Under the pieces are notes generated by a model. That model was given only the letters and a program-made list of their open reading frames with translations. It searched no databases and was not told where the DNA came from. From contig CP141136.1 in assembly GCA_035236585.1 (NCBI GenBank), forward strand, positions 49,927,136 through 49,991,135: 64,000 nt of DNA. Direction: 5' to 3'. A program made the translations under genes and the position numbers. The stretch comes from Warburgia ugandensis. Lineage: Eukaryota > Streptophyta > Magnoliopsida > Canellales > Canellaceae. Each line of letters opens with the position of its first letter. The stretch's first letter is position 1. Shown here piece after piece: positions 1-64,000 of the stretch.

Positions 1-1698
1 ATGATCTTATTACTTATGATAAACATTATGTCATTTAAACTGTGCATTTTATATATGTGTGATTATGAGAATGATTACTTGTGAATGATAAAAATTAGTA
101 ACTTGAAATGCTATATGAATGACATGCTTATAATTGATACCTACTAGTGACATTATTATATACATGCAATCTGTTCTTAAAAATATCATAGGTGTTCACT
201 GTGATAAAAAGACATTTATGGTACATGGGTACCATTATGTCATATGTGATGTATGAGTCTAGGATTTTACAATACATCCTTGGTGGGCGATCACTTAATA
301 AGTGAGGAGTTATGATTATGATGAGATATTCATATATATTATGGACAGGCAAGTCACCTGTATATTATTATTTTACATCTAGGCGTGGTGGCTTGAGAGT
401 TTGTTTTAGAATGGCATAGGCATGGGGATGCTATGGTAGGAGAGTTATGAGGGTTTGGCCACCCGCTCTCAGAAATTGTGATGATATGAATACCAAGCCC
501 AAAGGGGGCTAAAAGTCGGGTGGGTCAATCATGGGAAGCCCCCCACTGTGACAGCCATGGTCCTCGCCCATGCAGACAAGGATTTTGTTATTTTCACCTT
601 GGTATCAGCGGATTATTATGCAGTTATCTAGGCACACTGTACAAATTTAGATTGCGGCATAGTAGTCTTTATATTTGATGCACTATGGTGCGTATATAAT
701 AGCATGATGACATGCATATATGATGGCATGATGAGATGCCTCATATGATGATGGCATGATGAAATGCCTTATATGATAATAGCATGAAGAGATGCCTTAT
801 GTGATAGCATATGAGATGTCTTTTATGATGTTACCAGCAATGGCTGGAGTTTTATAAACCCCATATGGGAAGGGGTATATGTATGAGACCTAGTATATTC
901 AGGGAATGTAGGTTATAAAACCTATGGATTATGTTCATAACTTTGTATGACTTTTAACAATTTTGAATATATGATATAGTCCTATATGTATGTGCTGAAG
1001 GACATAGTTTCATAAAAGTTTTCGTATGGGGAAGTGAATGGGTAGATATATTATGCAAAGTATGGTTCATAGAATTAGAGTATGGCATCATATGGAAAAT
1101 GATAATGATAAATATTTGAAATACTAGTGAATTATATATATCAAATATATCATGTAAAGTGTAATATTTAAAATGTGATTATTATATTCATATTATGAAG
1201 AAGAATTATAAATAACTATTTTATCAATGACTTGTAGATAATTGAATTATTAATGAAATTATTGAATTATGAACTATGACCTATGAAATTATTAAATGTT
1301 TTATGTTTACAATATCCCAAATACAGACAAATAGGAAAAGACATACACAAGCAAAAGGAGTTTAACAGCCATACTTTTGCGCTCAGGTTTATATTTTGTT
1401 AAAGTTTTTATATTGTGTAGTTAGTTATTTGGATTATGCTGCTTGGACATTTAGTATAATGATTATGGGGGCTGTGTATGTGAACCACTGAATGGGTCCT
1501 GTTATTTCATAAAATACATGTCTATCTTCTTTAAAAACTATATTATGTATAGTATGGGAGTTGAGGTGACATCTAGGTTTTTGGGAAAATGAATTTCATA
1601 GAAAAATCTTCCACTGTTTTTGTATTTTAAAATTTAGAAGCGCACCACCTTTGAAAAATAAATGCAAAATTTTGTTTTGAAAAACCCGGGGTGTCACA
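1..1698 (+). mobile_element. Long-LTR fragment (3' part, plus sense), Ty3/gypsy-like fossil
   Basis: No gene is seen. The segment ends at 1698 in a GGGGTGTCACA-type LTR terminus. Read on the minus strand it aligns by eye along much of its length with 56364-57800, including a shared block at about 400-560 (counterpart about 57540-57740 on the opposite strand). The left end is outside the window. A degenerate repeat of about 33 bp (unit like GATGGCATGATGAGATGCC) occupies about 710-820. The fragment is old and strongly diverged from its relatives. LTR identity rests on the homologous solo LTR at 56364-59822, which has a target duplication. Whether it is a solo LTR or part of a larger element cannot be decided. 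Confidence 0.7.
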
Positions 1699-3228
1699 TT
1701 TTTGCTCAGTGGATGTTATGTTGGGAGGGATATAGGGTTGGCCACCTATCCTTTGACTTTGAGAGATGATTAGACAGCTACCCCATAGAAGGGCAAATAC
1801 ATTGGAAGTGGTATCATGGGTAGTCAACTCTACACATCCGATCAGTACCCCATTCATGACAAATACTTAGTCTCCCATTCTAGTGTTAATGGGGAGTAGT
1901 AGTTGGTAGACCTAGGAGTTGGTTACCATTGCAGTATAGCAATCCATGAACTTCTTGATGATTGATTGTATCACATTGCAAGGTGAGTGTGCTAGGATGG
2001 ATATTCTCTATATACCCATAGCGTGATGATGTGTGGAGGAGTGGTATGAGTATTCATGACGAAAGATTCAAGTGTATGGGACACTCATGGAACCTGTGTA
2101 TGAGGGTGCCCTTGCTGATGACTTGCACATTCATTGATATGTTCTCCAAGCTTTTGATGCTTTGTATTGATGTGGTTTTGGAATATTTATGAGCCATAGA
2201 AGATAAGTTGATTTGACATGTATTCAAACAGGTGGTTGGCTTGAGTTACATTGATTTGATACTGGCATTTTGATGAGCTTGAGAGGTTTTATTTACTTAG
2301 GATGTTTTGGAAACATGCAGATGGCTTGGATGCATTGCTTTGTTTTCAGCATTATTATGAGCTTTAATGCTTTGGCTGTTGTCGCCAGTTTAGTTGGGTG
2401 TACGCTAATTATGCCATACTTGATCATTATTTATTCTCGTATTTGATATCATACTAGAATTATTTCTATGAGGAAGATATTATCACATACCCTGAGGTTT
2501 GATACATGACCATTTTATATTGTGTTAAATATCTATAAATTATTATTATTGTCATCACCTACACAAGCATAGCTTGTTGAGGCTGTGATGTTTTTGTAAT
2601 TCTTTAGATACAAAGAGAGATAGCAGGTAATGCAAGAAGTTAAAGAGCAAGTGAGGGAATTGGCGGCCTTTAAGGTACATAGAGGAGATTTCAACGATGT
2701 ATATGGTTTGTTCCAAACCTTAACTTAGATATTATTTATGGACTGTAAATGTGTATGGTTTACACTTTTGTGACTTGGATGCATGAATATCATTTGGTTG
2801 GATGTGATGGCTGTGTATGGATAGACCTTGGCTAGCATTGTTGTTTCTTTTTTTATTTATTTTTACTCTACTATTGAGGTATTGGTTTTATTGAAACTGT
2901 GTATGATACGGATGGATGGACATAGAGATTGAGTCTCCAGATTTTATATTTATATTTATCGTATTTGTGTAGTGTTACCGCATCACATGTGTCAAATGAA
3001 TTGGTAAAAAATACAGAGGAGACTGTTAGATTTTTGGTAGAAATGAGAAGATCATTTCACTATTAAATCTATGCTTTGTGAGTCGTATGACTCCCGGGGC
3101 TTTGAAACGAATGCTTTTTACTCAAAATTTATGTGTTCAGTTGCTTTTAAAGTTAAAAAATTTAACTAGGGATCCTGACTTTTTAAAATTTGGTATATTA
3201 TATCATGTGTAAAACTTGGGGTGTCACA
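1699..3228 (+). mobile_element. Second LTR 3' fragment, plus sense
   Basis: This stretch ends at 3228 with the same kind of terminus (CTTGGGGTGTCACA) as the LTR ending at 1698. It has the layout seen in the 3' parts of the related LTRs, with an AGCATAGCTTGTTGAG-like block near 2570. An inverted inner arm of the terminus lies near 3088-3104. No start is visible. It may be an older LTR into which the copy ending at 1698 inserted, or an independent fragment. No coding signal is present. Confidence 0.5.
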
Positions 3229-4120
3229 CATACTTCAAGAAGGCCTCTATTGAAATTTACTTCAATGATGTAACTAAGGACTTTCTAGCTTAGATGTATG
3301 TGATCAAACATTTGATTAGCACTAGGTATTTGGCTCTGCTAATATGATATAAGTGAGTATGTGTTTAGGCCTCCATGGATGGTTAAATGGACCTCATCTG
3401 AACCCTAGGGGGTGCACTCATTTAAAATGTTGATTGTGTTTGAATATGGTAACAAAGTTTTGTTGTTTAAAAACAAAACTTATTGATATGTACCAATTTT
3501 AGGATTGGATTTTAAGATTCATTTCATGAAAGATATGTTTTCTACATTATGTGTCCTCATGTACATTCATATATGGAGTTAATATTTCATATTAAAAAAA
3601 ACTTTTAGATATTCAAGCTATGATTGTGGTGAAGTTATATCAACTTTCATTTATTATAAATAATGAACTAGGAAATTTATTATATATGTGAATGAAACGA
3701 ATAAAAATAAAGTAATTAGTAGTTAGTGTACTTATCGAACATGAGTTCACTGAGTTATTGTTAAATATCTTAGGTTAAAGAAGCTAACAAGGAAAATGAA
3801 TGAAGTTTGAATTAAAAGAAGATAGGTAGATAAGAATTCCTCAAGGGTGATTGTAGTTGGAAGTGTTTCTTATTTATTTTACTTATTCAAAGTATATTCA
3901 ATGTATAAGGAAATACTTATTGGATATCCAAGGAGTTGTAATAAGTTATATTTAGTTTTTGATAGTTATGAAGTAGCAATATTAGAACCTTATATGATCT
4001 AGTTGTAATAAATGAATGAACTTTAGAAAAGCAATTGTAAAATGATATTTAAATTTTAAATCTCATGTTTGACTACTCTAAGAATTTGTTATGTTTCTAC
4101 CATTATCATAAATATTCTGC
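3229..4120. other. AT-rich stretch without recognisable features
   Basis: I see no open frame, RNA gene or clear repeat here. Composition matches the surrounding transposon-derived DNA. Confidence 0.5.
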
Positions 4121-4199
4121 ATTTTGGGGCACGACAATATAGTTCCAAATAAAAAAGATCCATTGGAGATATTTTTACCCATAATAGAGATAAGAATTC

Positions 4200-5000
4200 A
4201 AATTAGAATTCACATTTGGCACAACTACCTCCAATTCTAGATGGTTAAAATTGCCATTTTAGTCGGCTAATTAATTCCTTCTACAGTAAATTCAAAATTT
4301 CATCTTAGAAGAATATTTAGCTTCTCTTCATTCTTAGTTGTCTAATTGTAAACCTAGAAATGAAACCCACTTGGTTTCCACTTTAGTTGGCTAAATCCTT
4401 CAATTAGTCAGCTAATTTCTCAAGAAATCATAATGCTCCAAAATCTAGCAGACTTGATTTTCAAAGTTAGTTGATTGCATTTCAAAAAATCCACTTTAGT
4501 TGGCTAAATCCTTCAATTAGTCGGCTAATTTCTCAAGAAATCATAATGCTCCAAAATCTAGCAGACTTGATTTTCAAAGTTAGTTGATTGCATTTCAAAA
4601 AATCATTCCAATGTTATTGGAATGAATTGGTTGGCTAAATCTTGCATATGAGCTAAAACCATGTAATACCTCTACTATTGATTCTAACTTTACTCCATTT
4701 AGTGGGCTAAAATAAAAAAAAACTTTGTCTTGAAAGGAACAAAACACTTTAGTTAGCTAAACATGTATGAATAGTTGATTAAAATTCAAAATATACTCCT
4801 TCACTCTTGTTGTCATTTAATTGGCTCAATCTTCATTTTAGTAAACTCAATGTATCATTTTAGAAGGTAGATTTATAGGCCATTGACTAGATTTTTAAGA
4901 CTAGTGGGTTATCTTGGCAACTTCTCACACATGTTATATTTATAGGCTATTGACTAGATTTTTGAGACCAGTGGGTTGTCTTGGCAACTTCTCGCAACTA
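4200..5000. repeat. Palindrome-rich region, probable Sirevirus (Ty1/copia) LTR fossil
   Basis: The near-palindrome TTAGTYGGCTAA and close variants occur about nine times between 4259 and 4829 (4259, 4383, 4404, 4496, 4517, 4627, 4699, 4749, 4817). Sirevirus LTRs are known for clusters of short palindromes, which is the basis for the family guess; no LTR ends or coding parts were found here. A second local duplication (about 56 bp, at about 4870-4926 and 4938-4993) follows. The fragment is old and decayed. Confidence 0.45.
4378..4603. repeat. Tandem duplication, 2 x 113 bp
   Basis: Positions 4378-4490 and 4491-4603 are head-to-tail copies that differ by one base (AGTCAGC versus AGTCGGC). The near identity shows that this duplication is much younger than the decayed repeat it lies in. 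Confidence 0.95.
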
Positions 5001-5845
5001 AGTTCGATACTTACCTAAATCCCAATTTTGGCATATTAAAATATTGATACCTAAGCTATTGATTGAAAATCTCATCATATTGATACATGTTTGTTTCTAA
5101 ACTTTTATCCAATCATGTATACATATAAACATGTTAGAAATGTATATATTTGAAGTTTTGTTATCATAAAAAATATGGAGGCTTCGATTAACAATACTAA
5201 GTCACATATTTTTTAGGGAAATAGGCTAGCGACATATTGTCCAATTATACCATTGAATCTGAGGATTGTAATGTTTGGATTGATAAACCACCAGGCTTTT
5301 TACTTGCATTTCTATGGATTGTAATAGCTCATGGGTGTCCTATTCTTTAAGCAATAATATTAACTCTTTCACAAGAAAAAAACTCAATAACAACAAGAAG
5401 ATAATTGCTTATGATAAACAAGAGAGAGAATGAGTGTCATATGCATGAACCATTTTATGAATGTCTCAATTCAATGATTATCTTAGGTAGATCCATTTTT
5501 TCTCCTGCTTCAGAGTTTGTAGTCCAAAATCATGATGATTGGATGATTCTTGTATTTGAAAATTTTATATTTTGCACATTGAATGTGATACGTTGTTTAT
5601 GCAAATTAAGCTTCAAGTATCTCATTTTCAGCGATGAGAAGTACAAGTTTTAAGATGTGAGATCAATCACACGTAGATATTAGAAGTTGTAGATAGTAGA
5701 TGAATGAGACAAATCAACAAAGGTGGGCTCATTGTGTACAAGCATAGTGCCTACGACAACTCAAGATGGAGTACTCTGCTATCAATCATGGAAATGTTGC
5801 TATTTATAAAAAGATTAGGAGCAATAGAATAGTGTCACCTTTCGT
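5001..5845. other. Intergenic, no supported feature
   Basis: AT-rich sequence. A frame of 82 codons at 5405-5653 shows no similarity that I recognise and has no gene-like context, so I treat it as chance. Confidence 0.5.
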
Positions 5846-5999
5846 AGTCTCACCATTTATTTTTATTTTTTTTGTAATGGTAGACTCATGCACTCACTTA
5901 GACCCCTCCTTTGAAGAACTTTGAACTTGTGACCTTCAGCATTGAGGACTCACTTTTGCACCACTGCACTATATCACACGCCTTTTTTACAGTCTCACC
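5846..5999 (-). mobile_element. tRNA-derived SINE with 9-bp target-site duplication
   Basis: On the minus strand the body (5855-5990) has an AGTGCAGTGG box-A-like block, a GGTCACAAGTTCAA box-B-like block, and an A-rich tail (complement of about 5855-5872). This is the layout of plant tRNA-derived SINEs. The exact direct repeat AGTCTCACC flanks the body at 5846-5854 and 5991-5999 and is the expected target-site duplication. The body is about 136 bp, short for a SINE. It lies about 1.05 kb upstream of the B'-kappa start codon. The insertion is well supported; the SINE family is not assigned. Confidence 0.75.
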
Positions 6000-6400
6000 T
6001 GCCATGTCATTGCCAAGCTTCTTCCTAAGACGCGCTGCGAAAGACATGCTTCCCTGCTCAACCAAGCAAATAGGGAACTAATACCCGGACATTCACAGCA
6101 AAACAATGGCATTAAAGCACAACATCTAAGCCATTTGATGGATGAGATCATCTATAGCTACTTCCTACAAGTGTACCAGGCACATTACATTTTTATCCAT
6201 CGTATCTTTAGCCAAATTTATCTTTTTTCCTCAAGAGCCCCTCACTACATTCTACAAATAGATACAACTGTAGGGCAGCCCAGGTTCCTCAAGATCCATA
6301 TCATTCACTATATCTTCTGTTTTAGATGATATATATTTTGAAATTCTCGATTATGAGATGAACTAGTAATTCCTGCATTTAGTTGTAAAATAAATGGTAA
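6000..6400. other. Intergenic upstream of the B'-kappa gene
   Basis: No gene is recognised here. The 64-codon frame at 6135-6329 has no recognisable similarity. Confidence 0.5.
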
Positions 6401-7047: not shown

Positions 7048-8199
7048 ATGCTGAAGCAAATCCTCAGTAAGCTCCCTCGAAAGTCCTCAAAGTCCGACAA
7101 TGCAGATTCTGTGGCGAGCAATTCTGGAAGTCATACTTCCTCTTCCGGCAACTCGATCCAACGGTCTCGCAGCGCTAGTGCCGCTTCTACCAGATCCACC
7201 ATCGTTAAACGAATGTCATCGGCGGTTTTCCCGTCCAGTCTTGTCGCCGGAATAGAACCTCTTTTGACCTTCAAAGACGTTCAAAATGCCGAGAAGCAAA
7301 ACTTGCTCATTAGTAAGTTGAATCTTTGCTGTGTCGTTTTCGATTTTAACGATCCAGACAATAACTCAGTAGAAAAAGATGTAAAACACCAAACCCTAAT
7401 AGAACTGGTGGAGTTTATTACCTCCGGGAATGCTAGGTTTACTGAACCAGTGATCGCAGCCATCTGTAAAATGACGGCTATGAACTTATTTAGGGTTTTT
7501 CCACCGAGTTACCGATCAAATTGCGCTACTGAAGCAGAAGAAGACGAGCCAGTGTTTGATCCAGCTTGGTCGCACTTGCAGATTGTGTATGATTTAGTGG
7601 TTAGATTTATTGCTTCTTCTTCACTTGATGCAAAAGTAACTAAAAAGTACATAGATCATTCATTTATTCTGAAGTTGCTTGATCTCTTCGATTCAGAGGA
7701 TCCAAGAGAAAGAGACTGCTTGAAAACAATCTTGCATAGAATATATGGAAAATTCAATGTTCATAGGCCGTTTATAAGGAAAGCAGTTAGTAATATCTTT
7801 TACCAGTTTATGTTTGAGACGGAACGCCATAATGGGATCGCGGAACTGTTGGAGATTTTTGGTAGTGTAATTAGTGGGTTTGCTTTGCCGTTGAAGGAGG
7901 AGCATAAGGTATTCTTGTGTAAGGTGTTGATTCCTCTACACAAGCCTAAGTCTGTGGGGCTTTATCTTCAGCCGTTGACATTCTGCATAACACAATTTAT
8001 AGAGAAGGAGCCGAAGCTGTCAAGTACTGTTATTAGGGGGCTGTTGAAGTACTGGCCACTGACAAATAGCCAGAAGGAGGTGATGTTCTTGGGTGAGTTG
8101 AAGGAGTTTTTAGAAGTAACCAGTGTATTAGAACTTCAGAAGTGCATGATACCCTTGTTTCAAAGAATTGGTTACTGCCTTAACAGTTCTCACTTCTAG
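7048..8199 (+). CDS. B'KAPPA: PP2A regulatory subunit B' (B56 family), kappa type: exon 1, ending in TAG
   Basis: This exon encodes residues 1-383 of a B56-type PP2A regulatory subunit, which recruits substrates to the A-C core enzyme through a HEAT-like repeat fold and binds LxxIxE motifs (family knowledge). The start [12 protein letters not shown] matches the usual B' amino terminus. Residues about 12-55 are Ser-rich and probably disordered. The core begins near [20 protein letters not shown] and includes hallmark stretches [54 protein letters not shown] and ITQFIEKEP. The one-exon core and the C-terminal TAVLV motif in exon 2 point to the kappa isoform. The last codon before the GT donor is TAG (8197-8199) where the family has Gln (CAG), directly before VAERALFLWNN in exon 2. 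As written, the protein is truncated at 383 residues, against about 500 for the family. No other disruption is seen. Confidence 0.95.
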
Positions 8200-9032
8200 G
8201 TGATTCTCTTCAGTATTTCTTTTGTTTTAATATGCATATTTAGTAATTAGATGTTTTTTGTAGTTCATCTTTTTTTGCTGATTTTCCGGATCTTACGAAG
8301 TATCTGGCTTCTTGCCTCACTCCACCGATTTGGTTCTGTTGACTAGTAATGTCAGTCTGTGGTTCATCTTCCATCTGCATCGGAGGGTCACTCATGTTAG
8401 GCCTATAAAGTATAAAAGGGTGAATCCATGTGGAAAATCTTCATATTTTTGGTTCTGTTGAATGCTGAATTCCTTCACAGACCATTTTTTAACTGTTGTC
8501 TGCATTATGAAGTAACTTGCTTAGGCTTTCAGAGGGAAATGAAGAAACAAATCAAATTGATTAAATCCAGTTAGAGAATCACTTTATATAGTTTAAAAGA
8601 ATCAATTTTCTGTTAAACTGCATTGAGTGCTCAACTTTGCAGCCTGAATTGGTTCTCTAATTTTCATTGCTAAGTAGTTATAGTGTTGTCTTTCATTCTC
8701 TGCTTCCAGAGTAAAGCTGATTTTTCGTCGAGGACTGTAGGTGCATTCTTGGGTGGTCATGCTTTGAGGAAAACATTGCATAGGTTCTGAGTTGGATAGG
8801 AATGTCTGTCCTATCTTCTTTTTGTTTGGTGCATGTATTCTTTGAAAATAAAGAAACATAAATTGCTTTGAATAAGAAACACTTTTTGTGCATTTTATCC
8901 ATATAAATTAACCCCCTTCTAATGATTCTGGTATTACACTTTATTTTTTAAGTCCTCTGCATTTCATTGAAAATTTTCTCTGAATCCACCACCTGCTCAC
9001 TCATGTGCTGATATTGAGTATTTTATTTATTG

Positions 9033-9105
9033 GACAGACATCATCATCATCAAAGCCTTATCCCGATTAGGGGTTGGCTACATGAATCTAAGAGTAAAAT
9101 ATTTC
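9033..9105 (-). mobile_element. 3' tail of a plant RTE LINE or LINE-derived SINE
   Basis: CATCATCATCATCAAAG followed by CCTTATCCCGATTAGGGG and GTTGGCTACATGAATC is the minus-strand form of the common plant RTE 3' end (GATGATGATG tail). No coding part accompanies it, so this is a strongly 5'-truncated insertion within the intron. A related but more diverged tail lies at 13845-13900. Confidence 0.7.
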
Positions 9106-11205
9106 ACTACACTTTTAAGTTGTTTTTCTTTCTGGTCAATTTATATGTTGTATTTTATCGAACATCAAAAAGAATACAATATTTTAATGCATATTTAAGT
9201 TGCTTTGGTTTCTTGTCAATTTGAATCCTCTTGAAGTTGTGGGGCAGTTTTCTACAAACAGAGTTGTTTTTGCATATCTAGAACTCCTTTCAGCTATTTT
9301 CCGTTGAAAATAACAAGATCAAAGAGATCCTACCTTGCCTGCTTTGTTGGAAATGTCATACCAGTTGCAGAGGAGAGAAATCTCCAGAAATTCTTCAAAA
9401 CCGCACAAAAACTAAGAAAAAACAGATGGCTCCTGGTCGGCTTTGTATGAAAAGATTTCGTTCAAGTTTTTTTAGGACAAAGTTGGTATTTTCTGCAGTA
9501 TCTAGCCATGTTCGTCATGTGGCTGCAGCTCTAGGGCATACCATTAGGACAAAGTAGTGGAGGGTAATTTAGGGAGAAGGAAAAACCCCTGAAACAGTTT
9601 ACTATAAAATGCCAGACTGAATGGTATTGACTGGTATTTAACTGGAACTGGTTTTCCATATTTTCTGTACTGATTGTGAGCTGAAACAGGAAATACTGGT
9701 GTACACTGGTGGTACTGTACTGGTATTGACAACCAAGGTCATTTATCATCTTGTTTGTCTCCTCATGACATGGTGCCTAGGGCTTTGTGCTTCATTTGTT
9801 TGATTACATGTGATTCTTCTTTGTTTCCTTTATCTTCTTAAAGAGAAACCTTGTTCCTTCTTGAACACGAAGAACTGCAATTTCTGCTTCACCTTCCCCT
9901 TTATATCATAAAATAAGGAATTGTATGGAATGCTGCTGGCATCTCTCCCTTTGCTTCAGCATTTCTTCCTGGTTGGTCAATCCTTTATTTCACTACTACA
10001 GAAAATTCCATTTCCATCATACCTTGCATGACAGATTTGAAAAGACTCTTGAAGATGCCAATATATTTTTAGGTCAAAGGATTTCAGAACATACTTCCTC
10101 TTTATTTCTATAGGACTAGAGAATGATTAATTTCGCTAGTGAGACACAATTTTCTTAGTAGTATTCATCTATAGTTTATCTTTTACATTTTTCTTCCCCA
10201 CTTCTTTTGAGGGATTAGTATTCTCATATAGCTGCACTAGGGTGTTGGGTCTACTTTTGTAAATATTTTCTTTAGTCTGTATAAGTATGTGTTCTGATAA
10301 GTACGGAAATAGGGAAAGCTGACTGGGAGTAACCTTTAGGCTGGTAAGCTCAATCAAAGTCACCTATGCCAGCAAATAAATGGTGAAGCCAGTATTCATA
10401 ACAAATGCAGCACATGTTTTGTATTCAGTGCTGTTTGCTCATTTTGTTATGTATTCCAACAATGCACTGTCATTTACATTGGGCTCATCTTTCTTTTTTG
10501 AGACCAGTTGAGAAAGTCTCAAACTGGTGATGTATTTCAATCAAAATGGTCACTGCCACTTGTTGGTGGCTTTAGTCCATGAATATTAATGAGAAAGGAC
10601 TCCTCAAGTGCATCAAAAACTTCAGTCCGCAAATGTTAAGTTTTATAGGCATTCTTTAACTAGTCCAGTAGGTTAGTAACTAAAAGCCATCTTTCCTTAA
10701 AAGCTAAATTAACTTGGTGTGCATTGAGTCCTCTGTTTCTTTGTTGCAGTTATCTTGGCCACTTTCAAATTTGTTTCTTCACCTCCTCTGTTGATACCTG
10801 CTGATGAGGAATCAGCTGAACTCAGCTGCCATTTTGGAGGATGTTTGGAACTGAAGGGAAGAACTGGTGTGGGGCAGTGAGTCAGTGAACACTTTTTTGT
10901 GTGCTTAAAAGAAAACCCAGTTCGGTTAGTTTTTCTTGGGGGCAGTTTTTTGTGCACCATTGATGGGGATAACAATTTGAAGACACTCTTTGTCACGGGA
11001 ACAAAATACTGCCACTTTAGTTATAATTTCTGAAGAAGGAGACAGCAAAGTGTTCACGTAGAATAGGTGGAATAAAAGAATTCCAGATTGCATGTACAAC
11101 CTATCTAAAGAAATGGATTTCACCATGGCTGGACTCCACAGTTTTGCCGTCACTGAGTTACTCTGTTAAACATGCAAGTCTTCTCTAGCTCCAAGATTTC
11201 ACTTT

Positions 11206-11208
<3 letters not shown>

Positions 11209-11249
<41 letters not shown>
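11209..11249. repeat. (TC)n microsatellite
   Basis: About 20 uninterrupted TC units lie inside the B'-kappa intron. The tract is likely length-polymorphic. Confidence 0.98.
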
Positions 11250-11252
<3 letters not shown>

Positions 11253-12405
11253 GTTTCTCTTTTTCCTGTTTCCTTCTCAATAGAAATGCCATGGACGATG
11301 TTTTGGCCAGTAACCAACTATCTGAAAAAGTATTTATCGATTATGTTTTAATGGTAAGCAGAGTACCCAAATTGTATTTTGTTTTACTTGATGGATTCTT
11401 CCACCGTTAGTGAATGGAGAGAGGGGTTCTATTTCTTCTACTTCTCTCCTATGATAGTTTATGAAGTGGGTTTCTGTTTTACTTCTTTCTGTTGTAGGCA
11501 GTTTTTTCTGTGGGTTTTATACCCTTTTCTCATTTTTTGCTGAGGTTCTTAAATTAAGATTTTCCAGTGTTTCACAATCCTTAGATTTTTTCCTTTCTTC
11601 TGATTTTGCTGGTGTATTTATTCCTTCTTTTCTGATTACAGACAATTGAAGTTTTATGCTGTCATCACTGGTATCCTTGAATTTTTATGCCGATAAATGG
11701 AGATAATTGATCCTGCAGAATCGCCCAACTATATTCTGTATGAAATTGAATCATGAACTAATTTTGCTGAAAATTTGGTCTTCCCACAGAAAACTTCACC
11801 AGCTTTTCACAAACCCCTGGAGTTCATCATAGTTCTCAATAGTTGTACTTGTTCATACAAAATAGTGCAACCCTTTATTATGACATCTGACTACCTCGCC
11901 CTTTATGAATTTTGGTATTATCTTATGAAGTTTAGTGTTCAGAATTTCGTTCATTGCATTCAGAGACAATTCATGTCATTCATGGTTTGACGATTTTCCA
12001 GTCCATGACCTTCCATTTGATATAAGTAAGTTACACAAATTGCAACTGGAACCTATATTGCACGGAAAGCACACATCAGCTGATAACTACTGGGATTTTG
12101 TATACTTAGATGGTAAATCAAGCTCCATCATTCCTGAGTTCAGTCAAGTCATCACTGTCATCACAAACCAATCACTGTGATTTCACATTTTGATATGAAA
12201 GGATTCGTTTAATGGGGATTGTATCTCAGCTAGTGAAATGGCGGTGTATAAAGCAAGTGAAAGTCACTTTTTCCCAATCACCCTATATTAGTTATATATG
12301 TCACTCGCCTGTACTTTTACCTGATTGGATGTTGTATTTGTGATTGTGCTTGACATGTTAAAGTGACAGTTGGATCAAAATGCCACTTACCTTTTCAAGT
12401 TTCAA

Positions 12406-12432
12406 ATATATATATATATATATATATATATA
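12406..12432. repeat. (AT)n microsatellite
   Basis: An uninterrupted AT run lies about 70 bp upstream of the intron acceptor. Confidence 0.97.
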
Positions 12433-12500
12433 CACTTCCTGACCATTCTTCATTTTTAGGTTTAGTTGTTGAGGCTAATTGGCATGAGGTATCCTTTCAG

Positions 12501-12869
12501 GTTGCTGAAAGGGCACTCTTCTTGTGGAATAACGATCATATTGTCAGCCTGATAGCCCAAAACCATCAAGTGATTCTGTCGCTCATCTTCCCAGCCTTGG
12601 AGAAAAATGCCAGGAATCATTGGAACCAATCTGTACTCAATCTGACACTGAATGTGCGGAGGGTGTCCTTTGAGATGGATGAGGAGCTTTTCCAGACTTG
12701 CCAGAACAAGTTTGAGGAAGATGAAGCCAAGCTAAAAGCAGCTAATGAGAAGCGGAAGCTGACATGGGAAAGGCTGGACACAGCTGCTGGTTTACGGCCA
12801 GTGACTGGGAACACAGCAGTTCTGGTAAATCCCATAACGGCTTCTCCAATTGTTGCTAGTCTTGGTTAG
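12501..12869 (+). CDS. B'KAPPA: PP2A B'-kappa: exon 2, conserved C-terminal part
   Basis: The exon encodes 122 residues in phase 0, starting VAERALFLWNNDHIVSLI and ending at TAG 12867-12869. It carries the last HEAT-like helices of the B56 core, including ALEKNARNHWNQSVLNL, then a charged helical tail (EEDEAKLKAANEKRK). The C-terminal TAVLV motif near PVTGNTAVLV resembles the C terminus of kappa-type plant B' subunits. The frame is intact and well conserved, which argues that the gene was under selection until recently. In the spliced reading it is separated from exon 1 by the TAG at 8197-8199. Without readthrough or a different haplotype, this part is not translated from the main start. Confidence 0.92.
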   Translation, partial: VAERALFLWNNDHIVSLIAQNHQVILSLIFPALEKNARNHWNQSVLNLTLNVRRVSFEMDEELFQTCQNKFEEDEAKLKAANEKRKLTWERLDTAAGLRPVTGNTAVLVNPITASPIVASLG

Positions 12870-13410
12870 ATGGCTGTATCTCTTGCTAATCCTTGATTTG
12901 ACACCTGATGTTTTGAAAGATCCTCCCAGACACTGCATACATGGGAGCTTTATGCACCGGGGCTGCCTTATGTTTTAAAAGATCCAAAGATGCCAAATTA
13001 AGTTTTTTTCTTGAGGTGTCATGTATAACTGGGTCAGATTTGCTGCTGCCCGGAATGCATGCCGAAACTTAGCCTGAATGCTTTGATGTCCATCTGGAAC
13101 TAACAATTCTCAGGACAAAGAGCATTTTGAAAGGGGAACATACTTACCAAGTTACTACAAGTTATTTCCATGGTTTGCCTTTATCTTGGTCAGCATGTAA
13201 TAGGCTTTCAGCCTGTACTCGTAACAATTTAGGTCACTGTTGTACTCTGCGAACAAAACGCTACTATTTCCGGATGGCTGTCTTGTGATGCAACCCTGAA
13301 ACCCCTTTTTTACATGCATAAAAATCCCATCCAGATGGTGATTGATTGACAGTGCATAAGGAAGCTCTCCTCATATGGTTGGGTACTTGCTTGAAAGATA
13401 AAATGGAATG
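12870..13410 (+). terminator. Probable 3' UTR and poly(A) region of the B'-kappa gene
   Basis: Sequence after the stop has no coding signal. GATAAAATGGAATGTGAATG near 13398-13417 resembles a plant poly(A) signal region, but the cleavage site is a guess. The first 100 bp contain a SINE tail. Confidence 0.35.
12918..12975 (+). mobile_element. SINE 3'-end remnant in the B'-kappa 3' UTR
   Basis: GATCCTCCCAGACACTGCAT followed by GGGAGCTTTATGCACCGGGG and CTGCCTTA closely follows the 3' half of the widespread angiosperm tRNA-derived SINE, whose tail is GACCC...GCATxxCGGGAGCTT.GTGCACCGGGCTGCCC. The tRNA-like head is not recognisable. A sister copy of the last 25 bp is at 32325-32352. Confidence 0.65.
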
Positions 13411-52750: not shown

Positions 52751-55023
52751 TTATGAGTAGTCATCAAGTAGAAAATAATGTAGGGAAAGCTAAGGAAACT
52801 TAAGAGGAAAAGTAGGCAACCAAAACATAGGAGAAAGAGAAGAGATAGAAATCTCCTACAAAACTTACATTGGAGGCACCACATGTACCCAAAGCCTGTT
52901 TCCTTAGTTGTTGAGCAAGGCTAGAAAGGGCACGAACTTAAACGAGCTTAAGGATGTATTTAAACATGTCCAAACTAACATTCCATTTCTTAATGCAATA
53001 AAAGATGTCCCCACCTATGCCAAGTTCTTGAAAGAGCTCTACACTAGAAAAAGAAAGCTAAATGTATAGAAGATATCTTTCCTCACCAAGCGAGTTCTTT
53101 AATATAACACAAGACCACACCAAAGTTTAGAGACCCAGGGTACCCTACAATTTCTTGCACTATTGGAGACCATGTCATAGATAGGACACTGCTTGACCTA
53201 GGGGCAAGTGTTAACTTATTGTCATACTCCATCTATAAGCAACTAATGCTTGGTGAGCTTAAATCAACCACTAACATGCCATAATTAGCAGATAGATCAG
53301 TGAATTTACCTTCTAGTTTTGTTGAAGATGTGTTGATATAGGTGGACTAGTTTTATTACTTGGTTGATTTCATTGTACTAAATACCTAACCTATATTTGG
53401 TAGATGTTAAGGGGATTGGTGGGAATGTGCTCATATCTATTAATAGGCTTTTGGTTGACATGACTAAGTGCTGTAAATGCTTGCCAAAAAGCATTTGTAA
53501 CCAATGGTGTAGGGGATTTTGGTTTGGACGTCCATTCCTAGTGATGTCCAATGCCATTATTAACTATAAGAATGGTGTAATGAAATTGTCATTTGAAAAA
53601 ATGAAAGTTAAGTTTAATATCTTTAGCACTAACCAATAACATTTAGACCTTGACGATTCTTGTGCTGTGAATTTGATCAAGAGTCTAATTCATGACATTC
53701 ATCCACCATCTTTGACTCACTAGAGGCTTGTCTTATGCATCTTTAACGGAGATTTTGATTTAGACAAGCCTATTAAGGAGGTAAACAACCATTTAGAGGT
53801 TTCTACAACCATGAATACCTCTAAGTGGGGCCCTTATTTGAGGCCACTCCCTCCTTTAGAGTCTGTTCCCATACCCTCTATAGAGTGACCACCTTCTCTA
53901 TCCTTATAACTCTTGCCTAACAACCTCAAGTACTCTTACTTAGGACCAGATGAAACATTATCTATGATAATAACATCAGATCTAGACAAGGAGCAGGAAG
54001 GAAAATTACTTAAAGTTCTTAAGGAACATAAGACTTTTCTAGGATGGACCATAGTAGACATAAAAGGGATTAGTCTAGTTGTATGTGTACATAGTATGCA
54101 CCTAGAATAAATGCAAAACCCTCTAGGAAAACTCGAAGATGACTAAATCCCCATATGAAGGACATGGCTAGACATGAAGTCCTTGAGCTTCTAGATGTTG
54201 GCATCATATATCCCATCTTTGAGAGCACATAGGTCAACCCCGTTCAGGTTGTACCCAAGATATATGGGGTCATAGTACTCAAGAATGAGGAAAATGAGTT
54301 AGTACCCACCTGCATGACCACCAGGTGGAGAGTCTGCATTGATTACAAAAAATTGAATGCAATCATGAGGAAATACCACTTTCCTCTACCATTTATAGAC
54401 CAAATACTTGAGAGTTTAGCTCTATATAGTTATTATTGTTTTCTAGATGGTTATTCTAATACAACCAAATTCCTATAGCACCTGAGGATTAGGAGAAGAC
54501 CACCTTCACCCACCCTTTTGGGACCTTTGCTTACCATGTATGCTTTTGGGCTTTGTAATGCTCCTTCTACATTTAAAAGGTGTACGCTGAGCATCTTCTC
54601 TGATATGATAGAAAGGATTCTAGAGGTGTTCATGGATGAATTCTTGCTATTTGGATCCTCTTTTGATGAGTGCTTGCACTATTTTGAAGTTATTTATTAC
54701 AAAGTGTTAGGAAAAGAATTTGGTATTAAACTGGGAAATGTGCCATTTTATGGTACAAAGTGGGATAGTTTTAGCCACATTATATCACATAATGGCCTAA
54801 GCTAGATTTAATAGGCAACCTTCATTCACCACGTATGATGAAAGAAATATGCTCTTTTCTAGGACATGCTGGATTCCACAGAACATTCATCAAGGACTTT
54901 AGCAAAATTGCCAAGCTGCTTTGTAATTTATTGAAAAAGGAGGCCAGTTTTGACTTTGATGAGAACTGTAGGAAAGCTTTTGAGTAGCTAAAGGATGAGT
55001 TGACCTTTGCACTCATTATCCAA
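52751..55023 (+). mobile_element. Athila-like internal region continued: late gag, protease and reverse transcriptase (fossil)
   Basis: The region resumes after the inserted element. A protease-like block lies near 53130-53250 (LLDLGASVN-like). Reverse-transcriptase blocks include KEHKTFLGWTIVDIKGIS (about 54025-54078), WRVCIDY near 54328, FGLCNAPSTFKRC near 54547 and EVFMDEFLLFGSSFDECL near 54625-54680. FLGHAGF is near 54860. These blocks are typical of the Athila/Tat group of Ty3/gypsy. The reading is broken in many places, and the LTR starts soon after the RT part, so the rest of pol is not present here. Confidence 0.85.
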
Positions 55024-58000: not shown

Positions 58001-61000
58001 TGTTTAGAACATGCATCTTATTATTTATACGCGTTGTCTTAAATTTCCACCTACCTTGTGTGATGCATTCACTAGATTCCACTAGCTTTAATCGCCCTCT
58101 TCTCCACGATCAACCACACACTTAAATCTTATTCAGGTAATTAAATTAAGTCAGAATACACACAACTACAACAACAAAAAGAACAAAACATGTTTTAGGA
58201 TAAGCAACTTGCCTTATCCCCTCTATTGTAAGCTTTACTGCAATACCAATGGCTTTTATGTTGACAACCGTTAATGAACCCATCAAAGAATAGATGTCCA
58301 AGTAAATTTCTCCTTCCTCTAATTTCCTTTCTTCTTTGTCTTAACTTTACTTTCTTCAACCTCATCCTCACTATCATCAATCAAAACATGACAAATTTGG
58401 AGCACAGACATGGTGCTGATTGAGAGATTGATCATGATCAAGGGGCAGATTTGTGTGGGTTTGCACAGATTGGATGTAGAACAGGGGTCATTGGTGTAGG
58501 GTGGCCATTGGGAAAGAGAGCCAGGTGTGCGAGCATTAGTCACTGGTTTGACACTAATGGAGAAATTAGATGGGTAAGAGAGAGATGGGGCTTTTGGGTT
58601 TCGGTTGGTGCAGGGGAAGAAAGTCGAAAAGGGGTTCTGCACTGGTGCCAAAGAGATGAAGAGGGATGGTCGTCGCTTGGGATCAGACCTAAGAAAAAGA
58701 GGGGTTACCGGTCAGTTTTGGGCATGCTGGCATGCCTAAAAGCTTGGCTATGCCGGTGCCATGGAAGATGGTCAGCTTAGGTAGTGCGCCTGTTGGGGAA
58801 GGTGAGGGAAAAATTGTCCATGTAGGTGGTTGGCGCACCAGTGGAACTGCACGAGCTGAAAGAGAGCAAAAGGAAACAGAACTAGTAGAGAAATTACCTA
58901 TGGAGTGATCAATATCCTTCATCACCACTGGAGAAGACAATTCTCTGTTGAATTTTTCCAGCAACCCTTCACGCGTTCACTGTTCCCCACTTCGATCCAG
59001 TATTGTTTCCTCTCTGATCACTGCAAAACAAAAGGGCTTTTGATCATGCCCTTTTATAGTTCAGATCCATTGGTCGGATTGGAGATCAGAGCCGTCGTTG
59101 TCTCTGGCAAGCTCTATTTCTCTAGTGACCTAAAAAACTCAAAATCCCCATTTTCTAGTAATATCGCCATTTTTCGGCATGACTGGGCTTCCACCCTTGC
59201 TCCCTTTCTCTTCTCTTCTCTCCTCTCCTTCTTCTTCTCCATTAGTTCTGTCATTTTCGACAGGTTCGGGTTTCATGGCTTGAGAACAGATTGTATGATC
59301 TGTTCTTCTTTTGGAAAGTCACAAAAAGGGGGGGGGTGCCAATATCAATTTTGGCCCCTCCTTTAATTATTTTATTTTATTTTCCTTTTCCATTAATTAG
59401 TTTATGTTTGTTGTTAATCAAGATGTTTTTCTTCATCATTCCTCCCAGACCCATATTTTTGCAAGTGGGGTACAATTACCAAATTACCCTTTGAAAGAAA
59501 ATTCGCGATTTATATGTCCGAACTCCATTTTCAGCAGTCTTAGTGTCCTTGGATTAGTATCAATGAGTAGAACCTAGATTTAATAATTTTAATTCCCAAG
59601 TTATAAGTTTATTCTCTTAGTTACCAAAATACCCCTGACTTCAAAGTCTCATAACTTTCTCATCCGGACTTCATTTTCAGCATTTTTTGGGTTGATTAAA
59701 TTCTATTTTTTGAGTAGAATATAATCACTTATGTTTCAATTCCTAATTCTAATTTCATAAAAAATTATCCTCCTAGAAAACTCATACCTCGATCACAGTA
59801 GTAGAATTTTGGGGTTGTTACAATAGCTAGCTTAAATCCTTGATTTTTTCAATTGAATTCTACATTTTCTACCCTCTTTTTTTCTTAGTTTTGGGTAGTT
59901 TTTCCATAGTTAGTTCACCCACTTAACTTTGTTTTATTTTTAATTCCCTTCTGGGTTTTCATTGCATGTCATTGTAATTTAGATTATGAGCATTATGTTA
60001 TAATTTTGATGTTGTTTAGATAAGAATTCAGGCTTTAGAAAAGTGTGTAATTTTCGTATTGCATGGACAGTTTTATGCTCATAATTTTGATGTAAATTGG
60101 ATGTGATTGAATAAAGTTCTTTGAGAATTATTGTTATGGAATGTTTATTCATCAAATTACTTGAACTCTGGGTTATTTCCTTGAATAAAAATTATGGTTT
60201 TAATAGCTTTCTAATGCAAGAAATTGGTTTTTCCTTAACTTTGTGTTTTAATATCACAAAAACATCTTATTTTCCTGAATCTTTATGTACATATTTAGAT
60301 TTTCATATTTTTTTATTAGATCACATAGTTAGTTTTCATAGTAACTCACTGTACGTGCATTAAATTTCACCATCTTTAGGCTCCAAAATGATGCACATAG
60401 TCCAAAAACTAGGAGCATGGTTCTAAATCCCATTCCTTTTGGATTTTTACTTACTTTAGTTTCTTAATTTAGTTTTAGAAATAGCTAGTTTATTATTTAC
60501 ATCTTATTTTAGGTTTAGAAAGTTTCCTTTTTGAATTTTAGGAAGTTCTATCTTTAGGAAGTTTTAGGATTTTGAAAGTTTCTTTAATTGTAGTTTCGAT
60601 TCACATGCATGTTTCTAGTTGATAGTTACAGTTATTTGGATCTCATTTGTTACTTTTTTTGCATTTTAGTTTAGTGTTAGAAAGCTTCCTAAATTGGTTT
60701 TAAGAAGTTCTATTTTGAGAAAGTTTCTAATTCTAGTTTAGGAAAGTGTGATTTTTGGCAGTTTCCTTTAATTTAAGTTTCTTAATTTGATTCATGATAA
60801 TTTAGCATTGGTTTCCTTTAATTACTTGCATGTTAGTTAGGTTAGTTTCTAATTTCATTATTTAATTTTAGTTTTTAGTATGTTTCTTTTATGTTTAGTT
60901 TCTAATTCCATGCATGCTTCCATTTCACGTTGTTTAATTTTCTAATTTAATCAATACTCTTCTTCTTTTGTTGAAGTTAATTAATTTGAATAAAATCCAA

Positions 61001-61095
61001 TCCATTTCAAATCTTTGAGATTTCTTGTGGGATTGACCTTGCTTGTATGAAAATACTATACTGATTTGTGTGCTTGTAAGTTAACTTTAAAATCA
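55024..61095 (+). mobile_element. Athila-like LTR, interrupted by a solo LTR
   Basis: The left part (55024-56363) aligns with the start of the LTR at 37971. The right part (59823-61095) carries repeated GGAAGTTT/AGTTTCCTTTAATT motifs and ends TTTAAAATCACAACA like 40440. The interruption is 56364-59822. Without it the LTR is about 2.6 kb. It is followed not by flanking DNA but by another primer-binding-site-like stretch and gag, so it is shared by two internal regions. Confidence 0.75.
56359..59827 (-). mobile_element. Solo LTR, 3459 bp, with 5-bp target-site duplication
   Basis: The body runs from 56364 (TATGACACCTTAGG) to 59822 (GGGGTTGTTACA). Flanks ATAGC (56359-56363) and ATAGC (59823-59827) are an exact 5-bp target duplication, as made by LTR-retrotransposon integrase. 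Sense is minus, because the GC-rich and 5' parts are at the right. No internal region is present, so this is the product of LTR-LTR recombination. Open frames at 58319-58780 and 58905-59366 fall in its GC-rich core and overlap on both strands, so they are not treated as genes. Repeats of TACATGTTTCATAATTAT lie near 56940-57030. Confidence 0.88.
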
Positions 61096-62517
61096 CAACA
61101 AGTTTTTGACATAGTTTTTAGGGAATCATATCAGATTTGTGGTTGGATCCTTATTTAGATTGTTTATCTTTAGTCTTAATTTTATGTTGCATTAGGTTAG
61201 GGTTTCGCATCATAGTTGTTTATTTTATTAATTCCTCACAAAATTAATCCATTTTACTTATTTTGTGCATGAGGAATTCGGTGAAGGAGCAGCTTCATCA
61301 ACTTAAGATTTGCTTTCTTAGATTAAGGTTTTCCTTTTCTTAGAGTGAAATTTGTAGTGAGGCCTAATGTAACTTGCAATTTCAATTTTAATTTTAAATG
61401 AATTGCATTAAAATAGGGCAAGTGTGTGATATGGAGCCCACACTTGATCATCTTCAAAACCCCCACTATATGTATCCTTCACTTTGATTTATTCCAGTTA
61501 GGTTGCAGTTAGTATAATTTATATTTGGTTGGTAGAATAATTCACATAGTATTGCATTATGCGTTTATCGCTTTCCTGTGGATAGATATAATTTTAGTAA
61601 GGCCCTCATAGGTTGAGGTCTAAATTCCATCTGAAAATTGGATTCTAGTAGGTGTCTTAAAATCCAAGTGATTTTCTCGCATCTTCTGTTGACATCGGTT
61701 GAGGTCTAAATGCCATCTAAAAATTGGATTCTATTAACCACTTTTGGGAAAAACCTAAATGTTAAGTAGTAGACAAACCTAGAAAAAAGGAGGACCTATC
61801 TAGATCTAGGTTTAAGAAGCTACCACCTATGCAATGAGAGAAGATAAACAAGATACTATTCGATTAATGCATACTAGGATTTGATTGTGCATCACGTAGA
61901 GTTAGAGTCAGCATATAGATTAGGACATTTAGATTAGGATAGTTTATGCAAGGTCTCTAATAGCTTTGCACTCAACTTCTACTAGTGATTTAGCTATGGG
62001 GATATGAACTTAGTTTCTATCCCCATTCACATGGGACCAATTGTGTAGTAAGTTTTTGAAAAAATTCTTCCTCGTTCACAAAACAAATTTCCCTTCATCA
62101 TGAAATTAATAATTTCCAACAAAAGGATGATGAACAATATTGTGAATTTTGAGAATGATGGAATGAAATATTGGAAAAATGCCCTCATCATGGATTTAAG
62201 AAATAGTAGTAGGTTCAATACTTCTATAAGGCATTAACTCCTCAAAATAGGCAAATGGTGGATGCTACAAAGTGGAGGGACCCTCATGCTAAAAGATGAG
62301 TGAGACACATAGGAGAACTTTTAGACATTGGCAAATAATTCTTAGCAATGGGATTATTCTAATAGAAGAGAGAGAAAAAACCAGTCTCCAAAGAAAGGGG
62401 GTCTATATGAGATTGGAGCACATACAAATCAATCCTATAAGCCTGACTCTATAGTTGAAAAATTAAACAAACTAGTGCCTTTAGGTGGAGGAATGGACAA
62501 ACTTGAAACTATATTTA
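61096..62517 (+). mobile_element. Second Athila-like leader and gag part (fossil)
   Basis: It follows the shared LTR and repeats 40441-42480 of the first copy. The leader (GTTTAAGAAGCTACCACCTA near 61810 versus the same block near 41516) and gag parts near 61960-62480 (GGAGCACATACAAATCAATC versus GGAATGCATACTGATCTAGC) correspond. It ends at 62517, where another LTR is inserted. Broken and old. Confidence 0.75.
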
Positions 62518-64000
62518 TGTAATGCCCGAGAAATTTATGCTATTTTAGACATTCTATGGGAAATAAACTGTGTTAAATGTTTGACTTTATTTAAAATAGT
62601 AAATGAAGGAATTTGTGAGGAAACTTGGCACCATTAGATTTTACTTGAAAAATGGAATCTAACGCCTCAAAGAACGCCAAAAACAGAGTTCGTATGAAGA
62701 AGTTACGACCGTTTAAAGATCAGGGGCAATTCTGTAATTTAAATAAAAAACAAAAAAGAACGAAAAACTTAGGGGGGCCGTTTTGATAACGGCACCCCCT
62801 GTCGTCTTCCACCTCTAGATTTCTCCAGAAACCCTCCTCTCACGAATTTTCCAGAAAACACAGGGGAAATGGAGGCACCGCCATTGAGGGGCACCGCCTT
62901 CTTCCCTCTATAAATTCCCTATCTCCCCCTATCCAAAAACATGATTTTCCGGCCATTTTGAGATTGGGGTTTATGGAAAAAATCAGAAACCCGTCTCAAG
63001 CCAGTCTCCCCTACGTTTGTCGGCAATAGCCAGGCCCGAGTCAGGCCGGCCATTGCCATCTCCCCATTTCCCCTCTTCTCCTTTCCGGTCTGGCATTGGG
63101 GTTTTCCCCTTCTTCATGGGTTCCGACAACATAGATTTTCGGCAGAGGGAAATGCACCACCGGGAAAAAGGGTGTCCCCAGGCTACCCAAGTAAGCCCCT
63201 CCTTACCTTCTCTCTGTTTTGCTTCCCCCAGGCCAAGATCCATGCCGGATCTGGTCTTTTTCCAGTCGAATTTCTTGGCCGGAAAATGACCCAGCCGGTT
63301 CCAACCGGCTCTGCACGAACAAGGCATCCCAGGGATGCCATGCTTCACCTGCGCCTGGGACTGGGTCCCTGGGACAGGTTCCAGGCGTACGACAGTGCGT
63401 ACACTGTCCCAGGTGCGGCCTTCGGGTGTGCGCGTGATGCGGGGCACGGGTCCTGGCTCGACCAAGATGCACGGGGTGCCCTAGGAGCTGAGACGCACCA
63501 TGCTACACCAAAGGTGCGTCCGTGCAATGCCATCCAGGACGCACGTCATAGTGACTCACTTGAGCATGCATGTGAGCGTGCAAAACGCGGTCCCTGGCAC
63601 GGCCTTTGGGCGCACAGGCACATGAGGCGGTCGCGGTTCAACCAGGATACATGGGTGTCCTGGGAACTGGGACACGCGGACCTAATGAGACTTTAAAGTT
63701 AGGATTAGAGGACAATTTACAGAGTTTAACTCTTGAATAGTAGATCCATATCATAGGATCTAACCTGACAATGAATTAGGCAAGGACCATGGACCCTAAA
63801 AGGAAAATCTAGCGATCTAATGTCTAAATAGAATGAAATTGATAAGGACTCCTTGTATCCATTCATACCCAGGACTTTATAAATGAGACCTAGGGACGGG
63901 TTGAGTGATAAAGGATGCGACTCTAGGAGACTTTGAGGTAGGTGCTCTATCACTACTAGACTTTTTTTAAAAGGAACCTATGATTGTTTTGAGAATGCAT
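62518..64000 (+). mobile_element. LTR 5' part (plus sense), GC-rich core, runs off the window
   Basis: It starts TGTAATGCCCGAGAAATTT. It matches 46549 onward, then has a GC- and CpG-rich core (about 62790-63690). It ends in the window with GGTAGGTGCTCTATCACTAC, AAACC-like spacer and GATTGTTTTGAGAATGCAT, which match the complement of 44180-44245. It is therefore the same family as the LTR at 42950-46198. Frames of 90-174 codons on both strands (62983-63696) reflect the GC-rich core. CpG sites are much better kept than in the other copies, which suggests a young insertion. Confidence 0.75.

Follow-up and report, generated by a model that had tools for sequence, protein, structure and literature searches.

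The window, a 64,000-nucleotide stretch of the Warburgia ugandensis genome (contig CP141136.1, positions 49,927,136 to 49,991,135 of the forward strand), carries a gene for a B'/B56 regulatory subunit of the protein phosphatase PP2A in which an in-frame TAG stands as the last codon of exon 1, directly before the splice donor. The parts of this gene, and two candidate donors lying within its first exon, are given in Table 1; its sister gene lies on another contig of the same assembly, here C12.

Table 1. Features of the PP2A B' gene, with positions counted from the first letter of the window; a slash marks the exon-intron border.
Feature	Position	Strand	Remarks
Exon 1, coding part, PP2A B'/B56 regulatory subunit gene	7048..8196	+	383 codons, open; Pfam PF01603 450 bits, human B56-gamma chain E 1.9e-107
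In-frame TAG, last codon of exon 1	8197..8199	+	CAG in 7 of the 8 other B' genes of the genome
Phase-0 intron GTGATT...TTTCAG	8200..12500	+	4.3 kb; 82% identity to the C12 sister's intron where the two align
Exon 2	12501..12869	+	122 codons and normal TAG stop; Pfam PF01603 106 bits, human B56 chain E 3.6e-20
Candidate in-frame cryptic donor AAG/GTATTC	7909..7910	+	weight-matrix scan; site without counterpart in the sister (Ile codon there)
Candidate in-frame cryptic donor GAG/GTGATG	8080..8081	+	weight-matrix scan; would skip the TAG at a cost of 39 residues

The junction codon and the B' genes of the genome

The translation of exon 1 runs from MLKQ to NSSHF and is followed by TAG at 8197–8199 and by GTGATT at 8200–8205, and exon 2 opens at 12501, after the closing TTTCAG of the intron, with VAERALFLWNND, is coding to 12866 and ends in a normal stop codon at 12867–12869. 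The scores of both exons against the Pfam B56 profile (PF01603) lie above its curated cut-off of 25 bits, with profile positions 3–316 matched in exon 1, positions 318–413 matched in exon 2 and position 317 of the 413 occupied by the TAG. The match to the human B56-gamma chain 2npp_B jumps from 340 to 342 across the same exon junction. Since the profile and 2npp_B each skip one position here, a single residue is missing and the stop stands in its place, so that the B56 core of the gene is interrupted and no uninterrupted reading frame was found over the whole of it. Exon 1 and exon 2 contain no frameshift and no early stop besides the TAG at 8197. The original prediction had described both exons as otherwise open and conserved, in agreement with these frames and profile scores, and had put the loss at 122 C-terminal residues including the last helices of the B56 fold; the figure holds, with the junction residue to be added to it, and corresponds to profile positions 317–413. 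Compared with plant PP2A B'/B56 proteins (PF01603), the gene is alike in that its exons together match nearly the whole profile and differs in having a stop as its junction codon and in several changes at residues invariant in the family.

The assembly compared comprises 1.12 Gb in 14 contigs, with the window gene on contig C11, and an exon-wise Pfam search found nine B' genes in it (18 matches, nine per exon, with all 20 first-look candidates scored). We take the window gene to belong, perhaps, to the B'-kappa clade (that of Arabidopsis At5g25510), the comparison made here being one among the B' genes of this genome. According to PMC10418862, the nine B' genes of Arabidopsis fall into four clades, kappa among them, and a fifth, phi, is absent from that plant. 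Amongst the eight other B' genes of the assembly the junction is alike in being of phase 0, with the acceptor AG/GT in all eight and the donor CAG/GT in seven (C12b, C5, C9, C14, C12a, C11b and C6), the donor of the divergent C4 gene being apparently GAG/GT, a tentative reading.

The sister gene C12b (contig C12, 19.39 Mb) shares 91% identity with the window gene in exon 1, has CAG at the junction and both exons open, and forms with the window gene a clade of their own (support 100) in a tree of the genome's B' proteins. A search for the 31-base junction pattern, with either C or T accepted at 8197 and at most two mismatches, gave two sites in the assembly, with TAG here and CAG on C12, and within those 31 bases the C12b junction differs by the C/T and one other base. 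The claim that a CAG-type codon at the splice donor has become TAG is thus borne out by the sister and most B' relatives, and the second copy with CAG, for which a search of the assembly had been proposed, is the one on C12. Among the DNA matches, eight for exon 1 and 44 for the exon 2 region (where 40 out of 145 candidates were scored), no third complete copy was found. As read from the assembled sequence, the TAG at 8197 is a real feature of the assembly and a single-codon difference of this copy.

A partial copy was also seen on contig C11, at 55.326 Mb and 5.4 Mb from the window gene, comprising the last 64 codons of exon 2 and the 3' untranslated region (3'UTR) on the minus strand (about 5404–4966 of L033, C11:55320900-55330800). 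It is open to its stop, and the match is without the junction and the rest of the gene.

Duplicate pairs, constraint and the age of the stop

Eight of the nine B' genes fall into four pairs. Synonymous divergence (Ks) in exon 1 is 0.248 for the window gene and C12b, 0.195 for C5/C9, 0.292 for C14/C6 and 0.248 for C12a/C11b, and the corresponding values in exon 2 are 0.175, 0.261, 0.248 and 0.327; two of the four pairs share the contigs C11 and C12. Similar exon 1 Ks in the four pairs (0.195–0.292) is as expected from one whole-genome duplication, and the window/C12b pair was most likely left by such an event.

In order to compare the members of each pair, we counted departures at columns that do not vary among the six other B' genes, leaving out C4 (too divergent, and with its exon 1 start not found) and excluding the junction codon. 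Exon 1 supplied 216 invariant columns for the window pair and exon 2 supplied 49; the two members depart together at 38 and 7 of them, respectively, as members of a separate clade would. Lone departures are unevenly shared, with 13 in the window copy (10 in exon 1, 3 in exon 2) versus two in the sister (both in exon 1; two-sided binomial p = 0.007), and M237N, three residues before R240, and Q309P are among those of the window copy. The C14/C6 pair is skewed as well, C6 departing at 14 columns, including its stop and one gap, versus two for C14 (two-sided binomial p = 0.004), and the two control pairs are without skew (C5/C9, 1 versus 3; C12a/C11b, 3 versus 5). Protein branch lengths under the LG+G4 model are 0.103 for the window gene versus 0.026 for its sister and 0.107 for C6 versus 0.039 for C14, with 0.043/0.021 and 0.066/0.050 in the control pairs. 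In relative-rate tests the chi-square exceeded 3.84 with four of seven outgroups for the window pair, with six of seven for C6/C14 and in none of 14 comparisons for the control pairs. Judged from these comparisons, the window copy has been under weaker constraint than its sister since the duplication. C6 (L017, C6:71599800-71602000, and L018) has an internal TGA in exon 1 where its sister C14 has TTA, and by its sequence it is a second decaying B' duplicate in the same genome, a parallel case.

The two copies were also compared for transition differences, counted in colinear alignment blocks only, with out-of-order repeat blocks dropped, and not polarised by an outgroup. In coding sequence it is more often the window copy that has the T/A (53 versus 27, p = 0.005, with the TAG counted) and in non-coding sequence the differences are balanced (195 versus 195), a combination which fits relaxed selection rather than methylation. 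CHG deamination had been proposed as a driver of the change at the junction CAG, and we rejected it as a special cause, the transition differences in the CHG sequence context being balanced between the copies (43 T-ward versus 42 C-ward overall; 14 versus 7 in coding sequence, p = 0.19, and 29 versus 35 in non-coding sequence).

The ratio of non-synonymous to synonymous divergence (Ka/Ks) between the window gene and its sister is 0.23 in exon 1, 0.31 in exon 2 and 0.19 when exon 2 is restricted to its B56 part; the 25 codons at its end give 2.3 on six differences, which are too few to read. The value of 0.31 indicates that constraint acted on exon 2 through most of the pair's history. With the intron as the neutral yardstick (431 substitutions and 38 insertions or deletions, 34 of frameshifting length, over 2371 aligned bases), the probability of finding at most one stop and no frameshift under neutrality is 0.066 at a distance of 0.02 and 0.015 at a distance of 0.03; halving the intron distance between the copies, 0.208, gives a branch of about 0.1 since they duplicated. 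A frame free of frameshifts and of other early stops, together with this low neutral probability, points to a recent stop in a copy that was weakly constrained for long and disabled late. A long-standing pseudogene was considered and rejected, since frameshifts are absent and Ka/Ks stays far under 1 both in exon 1 and over exon 2 taken whole.

Explanations of the stop and its predicted consequences

We consider it likely, from the sequence comparisons above, that the TAG is an ordinary recent nonsense loss in the weaker, slowly decaying duplicate of a PP2A B' (B56) gene. A duplication, probably of the whole genome, would have given two copies, with the window copy under weaker purifying selection than its sister, and a recent C to T nonsense substitution would have struck the codon at the splice donor. 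The TAG/GT donor would still be used and translation would end at codon 384, giving a product that would lack the last B56 helices (profile positions 317–413) and form no normal holoenzyme; much of the message may go by long-3'UTR decay, and the C12 sister presumably covers the function. Pairs of genes left by whole-genome duplication and since fractionating are a familiar concept in plants, and the window pair resembles them in that its Ks is like that of the three other B' pairs, in that one member is fast and carries a disabling change, and in its parallel in C14/C6. It differs from them in that the window copy has a single recent stop, as yet with no frameshift or deletion.

Donors were scored with a weight matrix of approximate plant frequencies, and on this scale the native donor (TAG/GT) scores 7.17 versus 9.02 for that of the sister, the native donor being the weaker because of the C to T change. 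It is plausible, as far as such modelled scores go, that the donor is weaker but usable. In plants, according to PMC3711448, intron-based nonsense-mediated decay (NMD) requires an intron lying over 50 nt beyond the stop, and long 3'UTRs also trigger NMD. The TAG lies 0 nt upstream of the junction, and the 3'UTR is 369 nt longer if the stop at 8197 is used. The suggestion in the original prediction that junction-dependent decay may spare the mRNA therefore stands in so far as the junction is too close for intron-based NMD, but long-3'UTR decay may still remove the message. The main text of PMC4463637 mentions neither exon nor intron.

Several points weigh against a recent nonsense loss in a fading duplicate. 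The relative-rate test of the window pair is not significant with C5 (3.57), C9 (2.79) or C4 (1.67) as outgroup, and searches with window positions 1–6400 (40 candidates scored out of 10671) and 60000–64000 (40 out of 24037) gave only repeats and lent no support to synteny of the pair. The intact sister is itself short by one exon 2 residue beside HW (NARNHW in the window gene, NA-SHW in the sister), a gap found only in C12b (exon 2 from 8876 of L009) and in none of the other seven B' genes. Relaxed constraint shows weak selection on the copy, not the reality of the TAG, and the evidence as a whole is that of a single genome assembly, at the level of sequence.

The leading alternative, which we regard as unlikely, is a base error in the assembly, the plant having CAG and a gene that is intact but fast evolving. 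One substitution as the sole lesion, with the frame open elsewhere, would suit such an error. Single-base errors are rare in modern assemblies, however, and one would have to have hit the relaxed duplicate by chance, whilst a matching combination, with a separate stop, is seen in the C14/C6 pair; the relaxation of the window copy makes a real loss-of-function change likelier than a chance base error. The TAG may also be a null allele of a single haplotype, or one that is segregating.

It is very unlikely that splicing from an in-frame donor further upstream, for instance at 7909 or 8080, bypasses the stop. Besides the native donor there are 27 phase-0 GT sites in exon 1, each of which would delete at least 24 residues. 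The site at 7909, created by a Val codon where the sister has Ile, scores 7.66, and its use would skip the TAG and delete 96 residues up to F383; those at 7636 (6.59, with 187 residues deleted) and 8080 (6.10, or 1.07 below the native donor, with 39 deleted) are also near the native score. Against a bypass stand the deletions themselves; the cheapest in-frame donors, at 8125 (24 residues) and 8116 (27 residues), are weak (1.79 and 3.92, respectively), and weight-matrix scores predict poorly inside exons.

That the truncated protein works as a short form, such as a substrate trap vying with full-length B' for clients while bringing no phosphatase to them, seems to us less probable again. PMC4930772 gives H187, R188, R197, K240 and H243 as the residues of the LxxIxE pocket of human B56-gamma, and in the 2npp_B alignment (offset 43, with 2npp_B positions taken as residue numbers) these map to H230, R231, R240, K283 and H286 of the window gene, all five of which lie in exon 1. 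Set against this are the greater number of departures from family-invariant residues than in the sister, M237N and Q309P included, and the youth of the stop, which has given selection on a short form little time to act. The 14 solved B56 sequences found all run past the exon boundary, and exon 2 was matched in every one of them, the shortest match being 31 residues. The more specific idea of a clipped B56 acting as a natural substrate-trapping antagonist of its own sister, with the pocket kept, phosphatase docking gone and the donor usable after a single change, is to our minds more doubtful still. That the TAG is read through or edited is the least probable of these readings, with no point found in its support, the stop being followed by GTTGCT once spliced; such a context is not known to be leaky, and nuclear U-to-C editing is not known from plants.

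If it is a recent nonsense loss, the window gene would be a neat case of one B' duplicate fading whilst the other is kept, with consequences mainly for annotation. Stops exactly at exon borders are easily missed, and automatic gene models may hide such a stop by shifting the intron. A short product, if stable, could block PP2A-B' signalling, and nothing here points that way.

Other features of the window

Within the 3'UTR, at 12924–12977, lies a stretch of some 45–55 bases that recurs at at least 34 other places, among the 44 matches listed, and the matches to the sister and to the partial copy at L033 stop at this stretch and restart beyond it. It seems to resemble the 3' end of a plant Au-type short interspersed nuclear element. 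Repeats dispersed in high copy number make up both ends of the window (1–1700 and 62510–64000), their dozens of matches being spread over many contigs at identities of mostly 82–91%, and two further copies of the 1–1700 repeat lie at most 80 kb upstream on C11. An open reading frame at 54479–54805 has a weak reverse transcriptase match (19.2 bits, below the cut-off of 29.6) and is probably, as its sequence suggests, a retroelement remnant. On the minus strand, 62090–62196 matches the plant C/D small nucleolar RNA snoR71 at 42 bits (gathering threshold 40).

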